In this document: piece after piece, positions 39,944 through 44,155 of the stretch
Numbering within the stretch: the stretch's first letter is position 1
Layout: each line of letters begins with the position of its first letter
Assembly: GCF_029581575.1 (NCBI RefSeq)
Contig: NZ_CP089975.1
Location: forward strand, 2,108,001-2,172,000
Direction: 5' to 3'
Length of the DNA: 64,000 nucleotides
Source: Moraxella nasibovis
GTDB taxonomy: Bacteria > Pseudomonadota > Gammaproteobacteria > Pseudomonadales > Moraxellaceae
Position numbers and translations under genes: made by a program
Notes under the pieces: generated by a model
The model's input: only the letters and a program-made list of their open reading frames with translations
What the model was told of the DNA's origin: nothing
Database searches by the model: none

Positions 39944-39970
39944 GATTGGAATTTTGTGAAATAAACTTTC

Positions 39971-39982
39971 AGGCAGCCTGAA
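39971..39982 (+). other. DNA uptake sequence AGGCAGCCTGAA (Neisseriaceae dialect)
   Basis: An exact 12-mer of the AG-kingDUS dialect, as I recall the published Neisseriaceae dialects. Within the near-palindrome TTCAGGCAGCCTGAA it also reads AGGCTGCCTGAA (AG-simDUS) on the other strand. It lies about 30 bp beyond a terminator. Confidence 0.6.
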
Positions 39983-39995
39983 AAATATTCCGCTA

Positions 39996-40391
39996 TTATT
40001 TTTCTTTAATACCTTGAATAATCTGACACTTATCAACCGTTTTATTTTCACAACCCACAAATTGCATTAAAAAAGTTTTAACTTGTTGTAGTTCTGTGAT
40101 TTGTTCGTCCAAATATGCCAAATGTTGCTCGGCAAGTGCATTGATTTCATTGCATTGTTTGTTAGGCGTTTGTTGTAATTGCAACAGCGTTTTGATGTTA
40201 CTTAAAGAAAAACCGATATTACGGCAAGTTTTAATAAAGCGTAATTGTTCTAACTGATTTTCATCAAACACACGATAGCCATTTTGTTGATGTGTGGGGG
40301 CGATTAAGCCTTGTTTTTCATAATAACGAATGGTTTCCAAATGTACGCCTGTTTGTTCACTGGCTTGTTTTATTTTAAAAAATTTTGACAT
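39996..40391 (-). CDS. MerR-family metal sensor, Cd/Zn/Pb type
   Basis: This 131-residue repressor-activator has an N-terminal MerR winged helix (about 5-75; IKQASEQTGVHLETIRYYEKQGLI), a dimerisation helix with Cys in NKQCNEINALA, and a C-terminal loop CENKTVDKC (C-x7-C). The cysteine in the long helix replaces the Ser of CueR and is the usual mark of divalent Zn/Cd/Pb sensors such as ZntR or CadR, though the C-x7-C spacing resembles CueR. It is divergent from the CDF gene; its own start overlaps the promoter it controls. Confidence 0.85.
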   Translation of the reverse strand: MSKFFKIKQASEQTGVHLETIRYYEKQGLIAPTHQQNGYRVFDENQLEQLRFIKTCRNIGFSLSNIKTLLQLQQTPNKQCNEINALAEQHLAYLDEQITELQQVKTFLMQFVGCENKTVDKCQIIQGIKEK

Positions 40392-40397
40392 TTTGGC

Positions 40398-40428
40398 TTG
40401 ACCCTGTAATGACTACGGAGTTTATAGT
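40398..40428 (+). promoter_or_regulatory. MerR-type promoter of the CDF gene (19-bp spacer)
   Basis: TTGACC at 40398-40403 and TATAGT at 40423-40428 are separated by 19 bp, the lengthened spacer of MerR-controlled promoters. The spacer holds CTGTAATGACTACGGAG, a dyad similar to ZntR/CadR operators. Metal-bound regulator would realign it. Confidence 0.8.
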
Positions 40429-40462
40429 ATAGCAAATTTCATCTTAAAATAGGAGCAAAAAA

Positions 40463-41077
40463 ATGGCGTGCCAAAATGGTTGCAGTGCAAATACCCCCAC
40501 TCATCAATCGTCCAAGTACAAAAAAGCCTTGTGGATTGTCTTGATATTAAATTTATCAATGTTTTTTGTGGAAATTGTGATGGGGGTTAAATCGGGTTCA
40601 ACTTCGCTGTTGTCGGACAGTTTGGATTTCTTGGGCGACAGTGCCAATTATTTGATAAGTTTGATTGTTTTGCCAATGGCGTTAAGTTACCGAGCCAAAG
40701 CATCTATGGTTAAGGGGCTAACGATGGGCGGTTTTGGTTTATTTATTTTAATGACGACCATTTATCGTGTGTTTTATGGGGAAATGCCCAGTTCTTCTGA
40801 AATGAGCATTGTGGGATTTTTGGCGTTATTGGTCAATGTGTCGGCAGTGTTGATATTATTAAAATTTCGTGATGGCGACAGCAATGTCCGCAGTGTGTGG
40901 GTGTGTTCCCGAAACGATGCGATTGGTAATGTGGCGGTAATTTTAGCGGGTATGGCAGTTTATTTTTTTCAATCAAAATATCCTGATTTAATTGTGGCGT
41001 TTGTTTTGGCATTTTTGGCATTACAAGCCAGTCAAGAAATCATCAAAAGGGCTTGGGCGGAATTAAAAGTCAGTTAA
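40463..41077 (+). CDS. cation diffusion facilitator-type metal exporter, short
   Basis: This 204-residue membrane protein has about six helices and no C-terminal cytosolic domain, so it is a minimal CDF-type exporter. Motifs of the intramembrane metal site are SDSLDFLGDSANY (helix 2, about 52-64) and SRNDAIGNVAVI (helix 5, about 145-156). The first residues are MACQNGCSAN, with two cysteines that could bind metal. Location next to a Cd/Zn/Pb-type MerR gene suggests export of one of these metals; the metal is inferred. An AGGAG site precedes the ATG. Confidence 0.85.
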   Translation: MACQNGCSANTPTHQSSKYKKALWIVLILNLSMFFVEIVMGVKSGSTSLLSDSLDFLGDSANYLISLIVLPMALSYRAKASMVKGLTMGGFGLFILMTTIYRVFYGEMPSSSEMSIVGFLALLVNVSAVLILLKFRDGDSNVRSVWVCSRNDAIGNVAVILAGMAVYFFQSKYPDLIVAFVLAFLALQASQEIIKRAWAELKVS

Positions 41078-41080
41078 TTT

Positions 41081-41118
41081 AAAACACCATTTAATTTAAA
41101 ATTAAGCGGTGTTTTTGT
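41081..41118 (+). terminator. terminator of the CDF gene
   Basis: A CACC...GGTG stem with an A/T-rich inner arm and a T-run; same family as at 39907-39943. An uptake sequence follows about 30 bp later. Confidence 0.7.
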
Positions 41119-41146
41119 TTTTAAAATGGGTAAAATAAACTTTTTA

Positions 41147-41158
41147 AGGCTGCCTGAA
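41147..41158 (+). other. DNA uptake sequence AGGCTGCCTGAA (Neisseriaceae dialect)
   Basis: An exact 12-mer of the AG-simDUS dialect, immediately upstream of the cueR1 3' end. Confidence 0.6.
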
Positions 41159-41164
41159 AAAAAC

Positions 41165-41551
41165 CTATCCCCCAAGCCCCTGTAAAATCGGACATTCTGG
41201 CATATCATCGCCACGACAGGCATCACTCCACGCCCCAAGAACAGTTTTCATTTCTTCTAATTCCTTGATTTTATTTGATAAAAATTCAATGTGCGTATTT
41301 GCCAACGCTTTGACTTCACAGCTTTTGCGATGTGGATTGTCCTGCAGTGCCAAAAGCTCGCCAATTTGGGCAAGCGAAAAGCCCACGCCCCTTGCTTTGG
41401 CGATGAATTTTAGGCGGTCAAGCGTATCATTGCCATAAATACGATAGCCTGATGCACTGCGTGAAGTGTTTGATAACAAACCCAACTTTTCATAATCACG
41501 GATTTGCTTGATGGACAGCCCTGTGGCTTTGGACGCTTGACCGATGTTCAT
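41165..41551 (-). CDS. CueR-type copper sensor, copy 1
   Basis: This 128-residue MerR-family activator has an N-terminal winged helix (MNIGQASKATGLSIKQIRDYEKLGLL), the Ser at the CueR Ser77 position (HRKSCEVK) and the loop CRGDDMPEC (C-x7-C) followed by PIL, matching the Cu(I)/Ag(I)/Au(I) site of CueR. AGGAGCAACA precedes the ATG at 41549-41551, fixing that start. It is divergent from metallothionein gene 1, which it should activate. From codon 87 back to the N-terminus the DNA is nearly identical to copy 2; the last ~38 codons are diverged. Confidence 0.92.
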   Translation of the reverse strand: MNIGQASKATGLSIKQIRDYEKLGLLSNTSRSASGYRIYGNDTLDRLKFIAKARGVGFSLAQIGELLALQDNPHRKSCEVKALANTHIEFLSNKIKELEEMKTVLGAWSDACRGDDMPECPILQGLGG

Positions 41552-41662
41552 TGTTGCTCCTTGTTTTGGCGTTTGTAAAAAATTGTCAATCCGCAAAAAT
41601 AATCCTTGACCCTAACGCAAGGTTAGGTTTTATGATACGCTCATCAAAACAAAAAAGCAATG
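41280..41662. repeat. 383-bp duplicated regulator-promoter segment, copy 1
   Basis: Matches 42771-43153 at all but two positions (G/A in GTGCRTATT and A/G in TTGCGRTGTGG). It spans the 5' two-thirds of cueR, the operator, and the start of the leader. Similarity falls abruptly at both ends. Confidence 0.95.
41606..41636 (+). promoter_or_regulatory. CueR-type promoter of metallothionein gene 1 (19-bp spacer)
   Basis: TTGACC at 41606-41611, TATGAT at 41631-41636, spacer exactly 19 bp. The spacer region carries the perfect dyad CCTAAC-GCAAG-GTTAGG. This is the classic MerR-family architecture, activated by Cu(I)-bound regulator. Confidence 0.9.
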
Positions 41663-41694
41663 CTTTTAATCGCTTAAAAGCACTTTGTTTTGAT
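41643..41694 (+). promoter_or_regulatory. leader RNA hairpin, copy 1
   Basis: The outer stem ATCAAAACAAA (41643-41653) pairs with TTTGTTTTGAT (41684-41694); the inner stem TGCTTTTAA (41661-41669), loop TCGC, pairs with TTAAAAGCA (41674-41682). The first paired base falls where transcription should begin, seven bases past the -10. The second copy keeps this fold with a compensatory base-pair change, so the structure is probably functional (5' stability or regulation). Confidence 0.75.
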
Positions 41695-41728
41695 AATCCA
41701 CTTTAACTTAACATTCGGAGAAACTGTT

Positions 41729-41875
41729 ATGAACGCTGATTTTGTTCAAAACCAACACGCCCACTGCGGCTGCCAATCTTGCACAGGGCAAAATTGCAAT
41801 CCAAAATGCAACTGCCAAAATGGCGAGCCCTGCATTTGTCAAAACTGCACTTGTGGCGATTGTGATTGCAAGTAA
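41729..41875 (+). CDS. 12-cysteine metallothionein-like peptide, copy 1
   Basis: This 48-residue peptide has 12 cysteines at positions 13, 15, 18, 23, 27, 29, 35, 37, 40, 42, 45 and 47, many as C-x-C or C-x2-C, plus two His in the N-terminal part (QHAHC). There is no signal peptide and no aromatic residue in the cysteine core. This fits a cytosolic metallothionein binding a Cu(I) cluster. GGAG lies 8 bases upstream of the ATG. It is expressed from a CueR-type promoter and followed by an intercistronic hairpin and the DUF411 gene. It does not resemble the bacterial SmtA or MymT proteins that I can recall. Confidence 0.85.
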   Translation: MNADFVQNQHAHCGCQSCTGQNCNPKCNCQNGEPCICQNCTCGDCDCK

Positions 41876-41889
41876 TTGATTAACTAAAA

Positions 41890-41919
41890 ACATTGGGCGG
41901 GCTTAGGTTTGCCCAATGT
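41890..41919 (+). promoter_or_regulatory. intercistronic hairpin, copy 1
   Basis: A perfect ACATTGGGC/GCCCAATGT stem (41890-41898 and 41911-41919) without a T-run lies between the metallothionein and DUF411 genes. The same element follows copy 2 at 43373-43402. It may set the ratio of upstream to downstream gene product or protect the 3' end. Confidence 0.7.
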
Positions 41920-41940
41920 AACCCACGACGAGGCAAAACA

Positions 41941-42423
41941 ATGAACAAATCCTTTTTTGGCAAAACCTTGGCCCTATCAGCCGTCTTGGCAAGCGTGGCA
42001 GGCGTAGGCTGGATGCTCGCCAACCCCGCCCCCGCAGAGGCCAAACCCGTACTGGAAGTGTACAAAAGCCCAAGTTGCGGCTGCTGCGGCGAATGGGTCA
42101 AGCATATGCAGGACAACGGTTTTAGCGTGAAAATCCACGACACCGGCAACAGCCAAATCCGCACACAAATGGGCATATCGCCCAAATACGGCTCCTGCCA
42201 CACCGCCGTGATTGACGGCTACGCCGTCGAAGGGCACACGCCCGCATCAGAAGTCAAACGCCTGCTTGCCGAACGCCCCGACGCCGTCGGCATCGCCGTG
42301 CCCGCAATGCCCATTGGCTCGCCGGGAATGGACGGTGAAGCGTACGGCGGCCGAAAAGACCCCTACGATGTGCTGCTGCTGGGCAAAAACGGCACGCACA
42401 GCGTGTACCAAAGTTATCCTTGA
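41941..42423 (+). CDS. exported DUF411 metal-binding protein
   Basis: This 160-residue protein has a signal peptide or anchor (about 1-35, LALSAVLASVAGVGWMLANPAPAEAK as two phrases) and a DUF411 domain with the strongly conserved CGCCGEWVKHM motif near residue 43, plus GSCHTAVIDGYAVEGHTP (Cys and two His) and VPAMPIGSPGM, where methionines could bind copper. DUF411 proteins occur with copper and silver resistance genes. The region is GC-richer than its neighbours. It is the last gene of cassette 1. A purine-rich GACGAGGC precedes the ATG. Confidence 0.88.
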   Translation: MNKSFFGKTLALSAVLASVAGVGWMLANPAPAEAKPVLEVYKSPSCGCCGEWVKHMQDNGFSVKIHDTGNSQIRTQMGISPKYGSCHTAVIDGYAVEGHTPASEVKRLLAERPDAVGIAVPAMPIGSPGMDGEAYGGRKDPYDVLLLGKNGTHSVYQSYP

Positions 42424-42440
42424 ACGCTCGGCAAAAAAAC

Positions 42441-42478
42441 CAGCCTGAAAACGCTCATCGGTTTTCAGGCTGAATTTT
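42441..42478 (+). terminator. terminator of cassette 1
   Basis: A perfect 11-bp stem AGCCTGAAAAC/GTTTTCAGGCT followed by a T-rich tail. The stem contains the GCCTGAA core of uptake sequences. Confidence 0.75.
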
Positions 42479-42498
42479 TCTCATCAAAGCGTCAAAAA

Positions 42499-42547
42499 CC
42501 GCTGTTTTTTACCACCGATAAGTGCTTCTTGCGGTAAAAAACAGCGG
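42499..42547. repeat. 49-bp inverted repeat with perfect 15-bp arms
   Basis: CCGCTGTTTTTTACC (42499-42513) and its exact complement at 42533-42547 enclose 19 bp. The same 15 bases shifted by one (ACCGCTGTTTTTTAC) occur once more at 26187-26201. It could be a hairpin terminator or a tiny mobile repeat. Confidence 0.6.
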
Positions 42548-42568
42548 TAAAACGGCAAATTGTGTTTT

Positions 42569-42617
42569 TTAAGACGGCCTTCTTAAATTAAACCTGCCTG
42601 AATTAACCCTGCCTGAA
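42569..42617. other. degenerate DNA uptake-like sequences
   Basis: TTAAGACGGCCT at 42569-42580 is one mismatch from the complement of the AG-DUS 12-mer. CCTGCCTGAA occurs at 42593-42602 and 42608-42617 with the TGCCTGAA core. Confidence 0.4.
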
Positions 42618-42637
42618 AAAACCGCCAAAAAACTTTG

Positions 42638-43042
42638 TCAGCCCTTATCCTCACCGCTCTCCGCCAAGCCTTTTAAAATCGGGCAGTCGGGGGCGTTGTC
42701 GCCGGTGCAGGCGTCGCTCCACGCCTGCAAGGTGGCTTTCATCTGTGTCAGTTCTTCGATTTTCTGGGTCAAAAATTCAATGTGCATATTTGCCAACGCT
42801 TTGACTTCACAGCTTTTGCGGTGTGGATTGTCCTGCAGTGCCAAAAGCTCGCCAATTTGGGCAAGCGAAAAGCCCACGCCCCTTGCTTTGGCGATGAATT
42901 TTAGGCGGTCAAGCGTATCATTGCCATAAATACGATAGCCTGATGCACTGCGTGAAGTGTTTGATAACAAACCCAACTTTTCATAATCACGGATTTGCTT
43001 GATGGACAGCCCTGTGGCTTTGGACGCTTGACCGATGTTCAT
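42638..43042 (-). CDS. CueR-type copper sensor, copy 2 (mosaic)
   Basis: This 134-residue paralogue of copy 1 has an almost identical N-terminal two-thirds and a different C-terminal third: the loop is CTGDNAPDC (C-x7-C) and the tail is longer (LAESGEDKG). The sensing residues are all kept. The change from near identity to divergence is sharp at about 42771, and the divergent part is GC-rich (for example GGGGGCGTTGTCGCCGG). This points to a recombination junction inside the gene. It is divergent from metallothionein gene 2 and should activate it. Confidence 0.92.
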   Translation of the reverse strand: MNIGQASKATGLSIKQIRDYEKLGLLSNTSRSASGYRIYGNDTLDRLKFIAKARGVGFSLAQIGELLALQDNPHRKSCEVKALANMHIEFLTQKIEELTQMKATLQAWSDACTGDNAPDCPILKGLAESGEDKG

Positions 43043-43153
43043 TGTTGCTCCTTGTTTTGGCGTTTGTAAAAAATTGTCAATCCGCAAAAATAATCCTTGA
43101 CCCTAACGCAAGGTTAGGTTTTATGATACGCTCATCAAAACAAAAAAGCAATG
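42771..43153. repeat. 383-bp duplicated regulator-promoter segment, copy 2
   Basis: See 41280-41662; two differences in 383 positions. Beyond 43153 the leader diverges but its fold is kept, and the metallothionein coding region is again nearly identical. Confidence 0.95.
43097..43127 (+). promoter_or_regulatory. CueR-type promoter of metallothionein gene 2 (19-bp spacer)
   Basis: TTGACC at 43097-43102 and TATGAT at 43122-43127 with a 19-bp spacer and the CCTAAC/GTTAGG dyad, identical to copy 1. Confidence 0.9.
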
Positions 43154-43187
43154 TTTTTAGTGGCTTAAAAACGGTTTTTGTTTTGAT
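43134..43187 (+). promoter_or_regulatory. leader RNA hairpin, copy 2
   Basis: Outer stem ATCAAAACAAAAA (43134-43146) with TTTTTGTTTTGAT (43175-43187); inner stem GTTTTTA (43153-43159) with TAAAAAC (43166-43172). Compared with copy 1, the inner C-G pair has become T-A, a compensatory change that keeps the pairing. Confidence 0.75.
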
Positions 43188-43214
43188 AATCAACCTTTAA
43201 TTTGGAGAATTGTT

Positions 43215-43358
43215 ATGAACGACATCATCAAAAACCCAAACGCCCACTGCGGTTGCCAATCTTGCACAGGGCAAAATTGCAATCCAAAATGCAACTGCCA
43301 AAATGGCGAGCCGTGCATTTGTCAAAACTGCACTTGTGGCGATTGTGATTGCAAGTAA
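43215..43358 (+). CDS. 12-cysteine metallothionein-like peptide, copy 2
   Basis: This 47-residue peptide starts MNDIIKNPNAHCGCQSC; from AHCGCQ onward it is identical in protein to copy 1, with all 12 cysteines. Nucleotide changes there are silent. Only the first nine residues differ, which suggests that the cysteine core is under strong selection and the N-terminus is not. GGAG lies 7 bases before the ATG. It is followed by the intercistronic hairpin and the DUF305 gene. Confidence 0.85.
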   Translation: MNDIIKNPNAHCGCQSCTGQNCNPKCNCQNGEPCICQNCTCGDCDCK

Positions 43359-43372
43359 TTGATTAGCTAAAA

Positions 43373-43402
43373 ACATTGGGCGGACTTATGTTTGCCCAAT
43401 GT
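43373..43402 (+). promoter_or_regulatory. intercistronic hairpin, copy 2
   Basis: ACATTGGGC (43373-43381) and GCCCAATGT (43394-43402), as in copy 1 but with two changes in the loop. Confidence 0.7.
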
Positions 43403-43435
43403 TTGCCAAATCCCATTTTGATAAGGAAAACTGTA

Positions 43436-44155
43436 ATGAAAATGTTTAAAAACCGTGCCGTACAATTATCTGCCCTTGCCCTTATTTTGGCGACTTTAAC
43501 CGCTTGTGGTAATGCCAAAAACGATATACCAACGCATTCTAATGCAGGCGATAGCAACTACACCCAAAGCACTCACGACACCACAAACAACCACGCCAAT
43601 ATGAACCACTCTGCTATGGCAATGGACACTCAAAATGCTCCGCCCCATACCCAAGCCTATCTTGCAATGATGAACAAGATGGGCGATGAGATGAGCAAAG
43701 CGGGCAATCTTGCCGATGCTGATACCGCTTTTGCCAAAGGTATGATTCCGCACCATATCGGAGCAGTTGAGATGGCAAAAGTACAGCTTGAATTTGGCAA
43801 AGACGAAACAATGAGAAAACTTGCCCAAGCGATTATTGATGGGCAACAAGCCGAAATTGACTTGATGAATGGCTGGCTGAATGGCAAAGACACGACCACC
43901 CAAAACGCCAACGCCCCACACGCCAAAGCCTATGCCTTGGACAATTCACACAGCGAAATGATGACGGCAATTTATGAGACCGACCCTGATGTCGCCTTTG
44001 CCAAAGCGATGATTCCCCACCACAAGGGAGCGGTCAATATGGCAAAAGTGCAATTAGAATATGGCAAAGATAAAGCAATGCAAGATTTGGCAAAGCAAAT
44101 CATCAATGCCCAAGAGCCTGAAATTAAGCTGATGGAAGATTGGCTAAAACAGTAG
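43436..44155 (+). CDS. exported two-domain DUF305 protein
   Basis: This 239-residue protein has a lipoprotein-like signal (about 1-22, LALILATLTAC|GN), so it is probably anchored to a membrane facing the periplasm. A Met/His-rich linker (NHANMNHSAMAMD, about 55-67) follows. Then come two DUF305 domains of about 75 residues, each with a metal-binding-like MIPHH-x-GAV-x-MAKVQLE motif (about 102 and 185). DUF305 proteins accompany copper resistance genes, and the motif His and Met residues are the plausible ligands. It is the last gene of cassette 2. Confidence 0.87.
   Translation: MKMFKNRAVQLSALALILATLTACGNAKNDIPTHSNAGDSNYTQSTHDTTNNHANMNHSAMAMDTQNAPPHTQAYLAMMNKMGDEMSKAGNLADADTAFAKGMIPHHIGAVEMAKVQLEFGKDETMRKLAQAIIDGQQAEIDLMNGWLNGKDTTTQNANAPHAKAYALDNSHSEMMTAIYETDPDVAFAKAMIPHHKGAVNMAKVQLEYGKDKAMQDLAKQIINAQEPEIKLMEDWLKQ

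Follow-up and report, generated by a model that had tools for sequence, protein, structure and literature searches.

Two putative CueR-controlled metallothionein units in Moraxella nasibovis, one of them fused to a DUF411 gene

Why would a genome carry, side by side, two nearly matching units with a CueR-type regulator that end in different genes? The question is raised by positions 41165 to 44155 of a 64,000-nucleotide stretch of Moraxella nasibovis (contig NZ_CP089975.1, positions 2,108,001 to 2,172,000), which as a whole is called the window here. Each unit contains a divergent CueR-type gene, a promoter, a gene for a small peptide with 12 cysteines (a putative metallothionein, MT) and a gene for an exported protein. 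Judged from sequence, we consider it probable that both are copper-tolerance operons under CueR control and belong to a metal island that has spread horizontally. Their most likely function would be Cu(I)/Ag(I)-induced thiolate buffering in the cytosol together with copper handling in the periplasm or envelope. This is supported by the CueR ligand residues and operator geometry, by the homology of the last genes to CopM and CopG, by the conserved 12-Cys peptide and by the recurrence of CueR-MT-DUF305 elsewhere.

Unit 1 consists of CueR1, MT1 and a DUF411 gene, and unit 2 of CueR2, MT2 and a DUF305 gene, as follows.

41165 to 41551, minus strand: CueR1, predicted Cu(I)-responsive activator (TIGR02044, 146.1 bits against a cut-off of 147.4)
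41606 to 41636, plus strand: CueR-type operator/promoter 1, TTGACC-19 bp-TATGAT with ACCCTAA-N7-TTAGGTT
41642 to 41695, plus strand: leader hairpin 1, ATCAAAACAAA/TTTGTTTTGAT pairing and an inner stem, -14.4 kcal/mol
41729 to 41875, plus strand: MT1, 12-Cys metallothionein-like peptide of 48 amino acids, a hybrid of two allele types
41890 to 41919, plus strand: intercistronic hairpin 1, 13 bp (41889 to 41919, -19.6 kcal/mol, z -6.0)
41941 to 42423, plus strand: DUF411 protein, CopG homologue with signal peptide and CGCC motif (PF04214, 90.3 bits)
42638 to 43042, minus strand: CueR2, predicted Cu(I)-responsive activator (TIGR02044, 149.9 bits, above the cut-off of 147.4)
43097 to 43127, plus strand: CueR-type operator/promoter 2, a 31-bp match identical to promoter 1
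43134 to 43187, plus strand: leader hairpin 2 (43133 to 43190, -14.8 kcal/mol, z -3.6)
43215 to 43358, plus strand: MT2, 12-Cys metallothionein-like peptide of 47 amino acids, DNA-identical in 11 copies
43373 to 43402, plus strand: intercistronic hairpin 2, 13 bp (43372 to 43402, -20.1 kcal/mol, z -7.0)
43436 to 44155, plus strand: two-domain DUF305 (CopM-family) predicted lipoprotein (PF03713, 170.1 bits; NF049983, 193.7 bits, cut-off 90)

The preliminary description of this DNA had reported the same order in both units, with 12-Cys peptides, hairpins and 19-bp-spacer promoters in each and a different last gene, and all of these elements were found where it placed them. From the CueR gene to the intercistronic hairpin, the units share 89.7% identity over 758 columns (41165 to 41919 against 42657 to 43402). 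In 50-column bins, identity is 49 to 50 of 50 from mid-cueR through the promoter, falls to 32 to 33 in the leader and MT 5' end, and returns to 47 to 49 in the MT body and hairpin. This patchwork suggests recombination, not simple duplication.

The alignment of CueR2 with E. coli CueR (1q05) is ungapped and shows S77, C112 and C120 retained. The same monovalent-metal-site residues (Ser77, Cys112, Cys120) occur in CueR1, which is 96% identical to the CueR of a Glaesserella plasmid and for which the CueR model is by far the best despite a score just short of the cut-off. Aside from an adjoining CadR-like MerR protein, they are the only CueR-type proteins of the genome, and its two copA-type ATPases are located elsewhere, outside the units. 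Both operators have the 7-N7-7 palindrome and 19-bp spacer of the E. coli and H. influenzae CueR boxes quoted in PMC10187127. Many relatives carry the perfect operator ACCCTAA-N7-TTAGGGT, where the window sites read ACCCTAA-N7-TTAGGtT. With up to three mismatches allowed, the pattern TTGACCCTAA-N7-TTAGG-N-TTTATGAT occurs at exactly two sites in the 2.23-Mb genome, and a reversed-pattern control gave none. Control of further genes through the same box was rejected, because this genome-wide search returned no third site.

Solved structures of close relatives exist for CueR, DUF411 and DUF305. The DUF305 protein matches NF049983 in two stretches and carries a lipobox-like LTAC read from the sequence, so that the score, the two domains and the export signal place it among the CopM-family metallochaperones. 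CopM-type DUF305 proteins are exported copper-binding resistance proteins that prefer Cu(I) (PMC4335983). The DUF411 protein, identical (100%) to its Mannheimia counterpart, has the DUF411 domain and a CxCC motif (within SPSCGCCGEW) and matches 6wis with an E-value of 4.8e-33. The structure 6wis is CopG; proteins of this kind are periplasmic and thioredoxin-like, hold a tetranuclear copper cluster and are often linked to multicopper oxidases (PMC7558416).

The peptides, 47 to 49 amino acids long with 12 Cys in CXC and CXXC motifs, fall within the broad definition of metallothioneins. Metallothioneins are described as rare in bacteria, and our literature searches returned no report of one for the genera concerned here. 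The peptide gave no match in Pfam (E-value up to 10), NCBIfam (up to 1) or PDB sequences (up to 10), and it lies outside the Pfam and NCBIfam profiles of the bacterial SmtA/BmtA-type families. Thus these Cys-rich peptides of a CueR divergon form a family that lacks a family model. The 26 copies collapse into eight DNA alleles, in which all 12 Cys are invariant and the sense frame is kept. Since this conservation extends over about 20 genomes, the peptides look like real gene products. There are two main allele types: MNDIIKNPN...CGDCDCK, that of the 11 DNA-identical copies, and MNADFVQNRH...CNGCACES, found in Pasteurellaceae and two Neisseriaceae-family genomes. MT1 joins the N-terminus of the latter to a body of the MT2 type.

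The preliminary description had proposed a search for the peptide beside cueR-type genes, and this recovered CueR-MT-DUF305 in about 20 genomes. In the 26 peptide gene copies, which lie in whole-genome stretches or in the one plasmid record, the following gene is DUF305 in 23 and a truncated DUF305 in two; DUF411 follows only in the window. The usual order is CueR, MT, hairpin and DUF305, mostly beside a CadR-like MerR gene and a CDF gene and sometimes with ACR3 between. Exceptions are the second unit of L043 and L044 (Mannheimia and a relative), where DUF305 is shortened after its start, and locus L069, where it stops after a few codons. In the relatives L016, L022, L043 and L044, DUF411 comes after a multicopper oxidase. 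On this comparison, the native unit is taken to be CueR-metallothionein-DUF305 (CopM family), and the native context of DUF411 to be behind a multicopper oxidase gene.

How, then, did DUF411 come to follow MT1? The change from one kind of sequence to the other is sharp.

41919 to 41920, no strand: recombination junction; to its left, the CueR-MT-hairpin sequence of relatives; to its right, 99.35% identity to the Mannheimia intergene between multicopper oxidase and DUF411

The left flank (39967 to 41853) is 95.7% identical to L046/L050, Pasteurellaceae loci of the order MerR-CDF-CueR-MT, and the right flank (41919 to 43461) shares 99.35% identity with L043 and 99.29% with L044, Mannheimia-type loci of the order DUF411-CueR-MT. 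Across the junction, marked by a slash, the sequence is CCCAATGT/TTGCC in the left parent, CCACTT/AACCCACG in the right one and CCCAATGT/AACCCACG in the window. No junction of this kind was seen in any of the relatives, and unit 1 is best read as a chimera, the product of recombination. The two units stand in tandem in L044, at a distance of 5.4 kb. In L043, a relative of L044, a P-type ATPase gene and an oxidase gene lie between DUF305 and DUF411, and the oxidase-DUF411 intergene is shared by L044. Because the units are in tandem in Mannheimia-type genomes, a single deletion of about 5 kb plus recombination between alleles would explain the window arrangement. Such a deletion would also remove an inverted repeat resembling a DNA uptake sequence (DUS) between the oxidase and DUF411, so that DUF411 is now probably transcribed from the CueR1 promoter. 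The window thus offers a clear example, resolved to the base, of how an operon is re-wired: the gene for a periplasmic copper protein would have come under another copper-sensing front end.

Peptide matches were found in 5 of 22 genomes of the genus and 6 of 299 of the family, in 10 of 140 Pasteurellaceae (the Mannheimia family) and in 5 of 83 Neisseriaceae (the family of Neisseria dentiae), with one clear further match only in a class-wide sample. Order-level matches (L009 to L013) were weak, with E-values of about 0.003 to 0.006 and 29 to 37% identity. The segment 43180 to 43477 is 97.6 to 100% identical across nine loci from three bacterial families, synonymous sites included, and the surrounding cueR and the rest of DUF305 are about 75 to 95% identical among the same loci. 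The 11 DNA-identical MT2 copies come from Moraxellaceae, Neisseriaceae and Pasteurellaceae. Patchy presence together with identical DNA points to recent horizontal transfer, by which the unit appears to have spread through these three families. Recent movement of the peptide family would have linked Moraxella, Neisseria/Alysiella and Mannheimia/Glaesserella, and several of these come from livestock. Phage or plasmid cargo was rejected as a general explanation: one copy is on a Glaesserella plasmid and one on an IMG/VR contig with a prophage flank, and most are on genome-assembly contigs. PADLOC returned no hit.

The leader hairpin is predicted to lie at or near the mRNA 5' end; for leader hairpin 1, z was -2.9, computed on a slightly truncated segment. 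The intercistronic hairpin is kept in all relatives, with variable loop and flanks. Its stem changes comprise a compensatory exchange at one pair (C-G to U-A), wobble-preserving changes at two others and a single disrupting mutation, the last common to L046, L050 and L051. The leader hairpin shows one compensatory pair, against the other leader type, and three wobble-preserving pairs. With four distinct sequences per hairpin, the covariation fell short of the shuffle control at every strict level, and it is chiefly stability and conservation that support the structures. An intrinsic terminator was not favoured for the intercistronic hairpin, which has no T-run after it, and a genome-wide repeat was rejected, as this hairpin occurs in the genome only at the sites of the two units. 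Its likely roles would be to stabilise the mRNA and to set the ratio of MT to partner.

From these elements the following mechanism may be proposed. Cytosolic Cu(I) or Ag(I) would load CueR, which would remodel the 19-bp-spacer promoter, giving a short transcript whose 5' end carries a hairpin. The metallothionein from the first gene would bind cytosolic Cu(I) in clusters, and the second gene, past the 13-bp hairpin (probably serving mRNA stability or gene ratio), would yield an envelope copper protein, natively the CopM-like DUF305 lipoprotein. In unit 1, recombination or deletion would have taken away DUF305 together with whatever stood ahead of DUF411, natively a multicopper oxidase gene and the inverted DUS-like repeat; the CueR1-MT1-hairpin segment would thereby have been joined without a gap to the ribosome-binding site of the gene for the CopG-like DUF411 protein. 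Besides CopM and CopG there is a precedent in H. somni, where metal islands with mco, the gene of a metal-binding protein, czcD and acr3 make copper tolerance transferable (PMC6048870). These precedents make CueR-driven Cu(I)/Ag(I) tolerance the best interpretation. Several points weigh against it: the CueR1 score is just below the model's cut-off, the covariation is limited to one compensatory pair per hairpin among four distinct sequences, the functions given to the hairpins are conjectural, and a deletion in a tandem ancestor cannot be told apart here from a crossover of two incoming fragments. In addition, the CadR-like and CDF genes of the island mean that zinc or cadmium could be involved.

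The last point leads to the alternative that the peptides buffer zinc/cadmium or act as a general reserve of thiols, CueR control being secondary. Apart from the neighbouring genes, it can appeal to SmtA, the best-known bacterial metallothionein, which handles zinc and cadmium (PMC7558416). We regard it as unlikely, since a CueR box lies in the MT promoter, Ser77 and C112/C120 are retained in the regulator, and both kinds of partner gene come from copper families.

Somewhat less probable is a truly modular front end, in which a recurrent CueR-promoter-MT-hairpin cassette takes up one envelope copper protein or another and recombination favours the hairpins as borders. It would account for a DUF411 junction at the very last base of intercistronic hairpin 1 and for the persistence of CueR-MT after DUF305 truncation in L043, L044 and L069. 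Promoterless second MT-DUF305 copies in two different families (L019:10668 and L043:6980) begin inside the leader hairpin and are fused to near-identical foreign upstream sequence; because the two share that sequence, however, they count as one event. Moreover, no other partner was found among the 26 copies, the truncations of L043 and L069 fall inside DUF305, away from the hairpin, and the hybrid alleles of the window and of L018, whose peptide is the reverse hybrid of MT1, cross over within the peptide gene. The stronger form, that the CueR-promoter-MT block, delimited by two conserved hairpins, is a mobile sense-and-buffer element repeatedly joined to different envelope copper genes at hairpin borders, we find more doubtful still. 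Hence, of the modular copper-buffer and envelope-handling system put forward in the preliminary description, the copper buffer and envelope unit is upheld by homology, whereas the interchangeable partners reduce to what appears to be one fusion event and not a demonstrated design.

It is very improbable that the 12-Cys frames are not genes and that the true gene is an antisense open reading frame (ORF), open in eight of eight alleles and annotated as a hypothetical protein (J1G47_RS11650): the variable sites of the alleles fall 12/6/20 by codon position, the synonymous share of codon differences between allele pairs is 29% for the sense frame and 11% for the antisense frame, all 12 Cys of the sense product are invariant, and the sense ORF has a Shine-Dalgarno-like motif, a CueR promoter and a co-directional partner gene. 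In the Glaesserella plasmid NZ_CP071488.1 (21735 to 21914; L014:19983-20162) this antisense ORF (WP_010787307.1) is annotated and the MT gene is missed. With one record annotated in this way and no hidden Markov model for the family, copper-tolerance surveys would miss the peptide.

Compared with known systems, the units are mostly conventional in logic; what they add is a family of peptides that lacks a model and a fusion that is informative, the interchangeable-partner claim resting on this single recombinant. E. coli and H. influenzae CueR-copA (copZA) share the divergent cueR, 19-bp-spacer promoter and 7-N7-7 palindrome, cueR of H. influenzae diverging from copZ copies and copA (PMC10187127), but their output is a P-type ATPase or CopZ instead of a 12-Cys peptide and an exported protein. 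SmtA/BmtA and MymT are likewise small and Cys-rich, and MymT is copper-linked and was also missed by annotation (PMC7558416); the window peptides differ in their CXC-rich pattern, predicted CueR control, operon with CopM and lack of a family-model match. CopM of Synechocystis, Cu(I)-preferring in vitro (PMC4335983), is exported with two DUF305 domains as in the window but is under CopRS, whereas the window protein, predicted to be a lipoprotein, is encoded behind a metallothionein gene with CueR as the regulator. CopG/DUF411 proteins of the cutO-cutG type share the CGCC motif and 6wis homology and have an oxidase neighbour, as in the window's relatives; in the window DUF411 follows MT1 without an oxidase. 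ICEHs1 and ICEPmu1, mobile elements of Pasteurellaceae, contain mco with the gene of a metal-binding protein, czcD (CDF) and acr3, and their transfer in H. somni raises copper tolerance; the available passages do not mention metallothionein or CueR (PMC6048870). That no described system has this order holds within the literature searched, although CueR-MT-DUF305 itself is recurrent in genomes.

The left part of the island holds two further genes.

39996 to 40391, minus strand: MerR-family regulator, CadR/PbrR-like (TIGR02047, 113.6 bits, below the cut-off of 151)
40463 to 41077, plus strand: CDF-family cation efflux protein of 204 amino acids (PF01545, 63.4 bits; TIGR01297, 90.9 bits, above cut-off)

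The CadR-like MerR gene adjoins CDF and CueR in most relatives. In a Mannheimia copper island (L043:8346-16344), CueR-MT is surrounded by a P-type ATPase gene, two genes for multicopper oxidases and two DUF411 genes that differ from each other. In Pasteurella multocida (L068, CP084164.1), multicopper oxidase-DUF411 and MerR-CDF-ACR3-ArsC lie by integrases, with no CueR-MT in the stretch read. The window also contains repeats, mostly intergenic and 72 to 87% identical (38878-38968/46707-46798, 39906-39985/41081-41161 and 44170-44327/45112-45273), and DUS-like motifs such as GGCTGCCTGAA and GCCGTCTGAA occur in or near some of these repeats.

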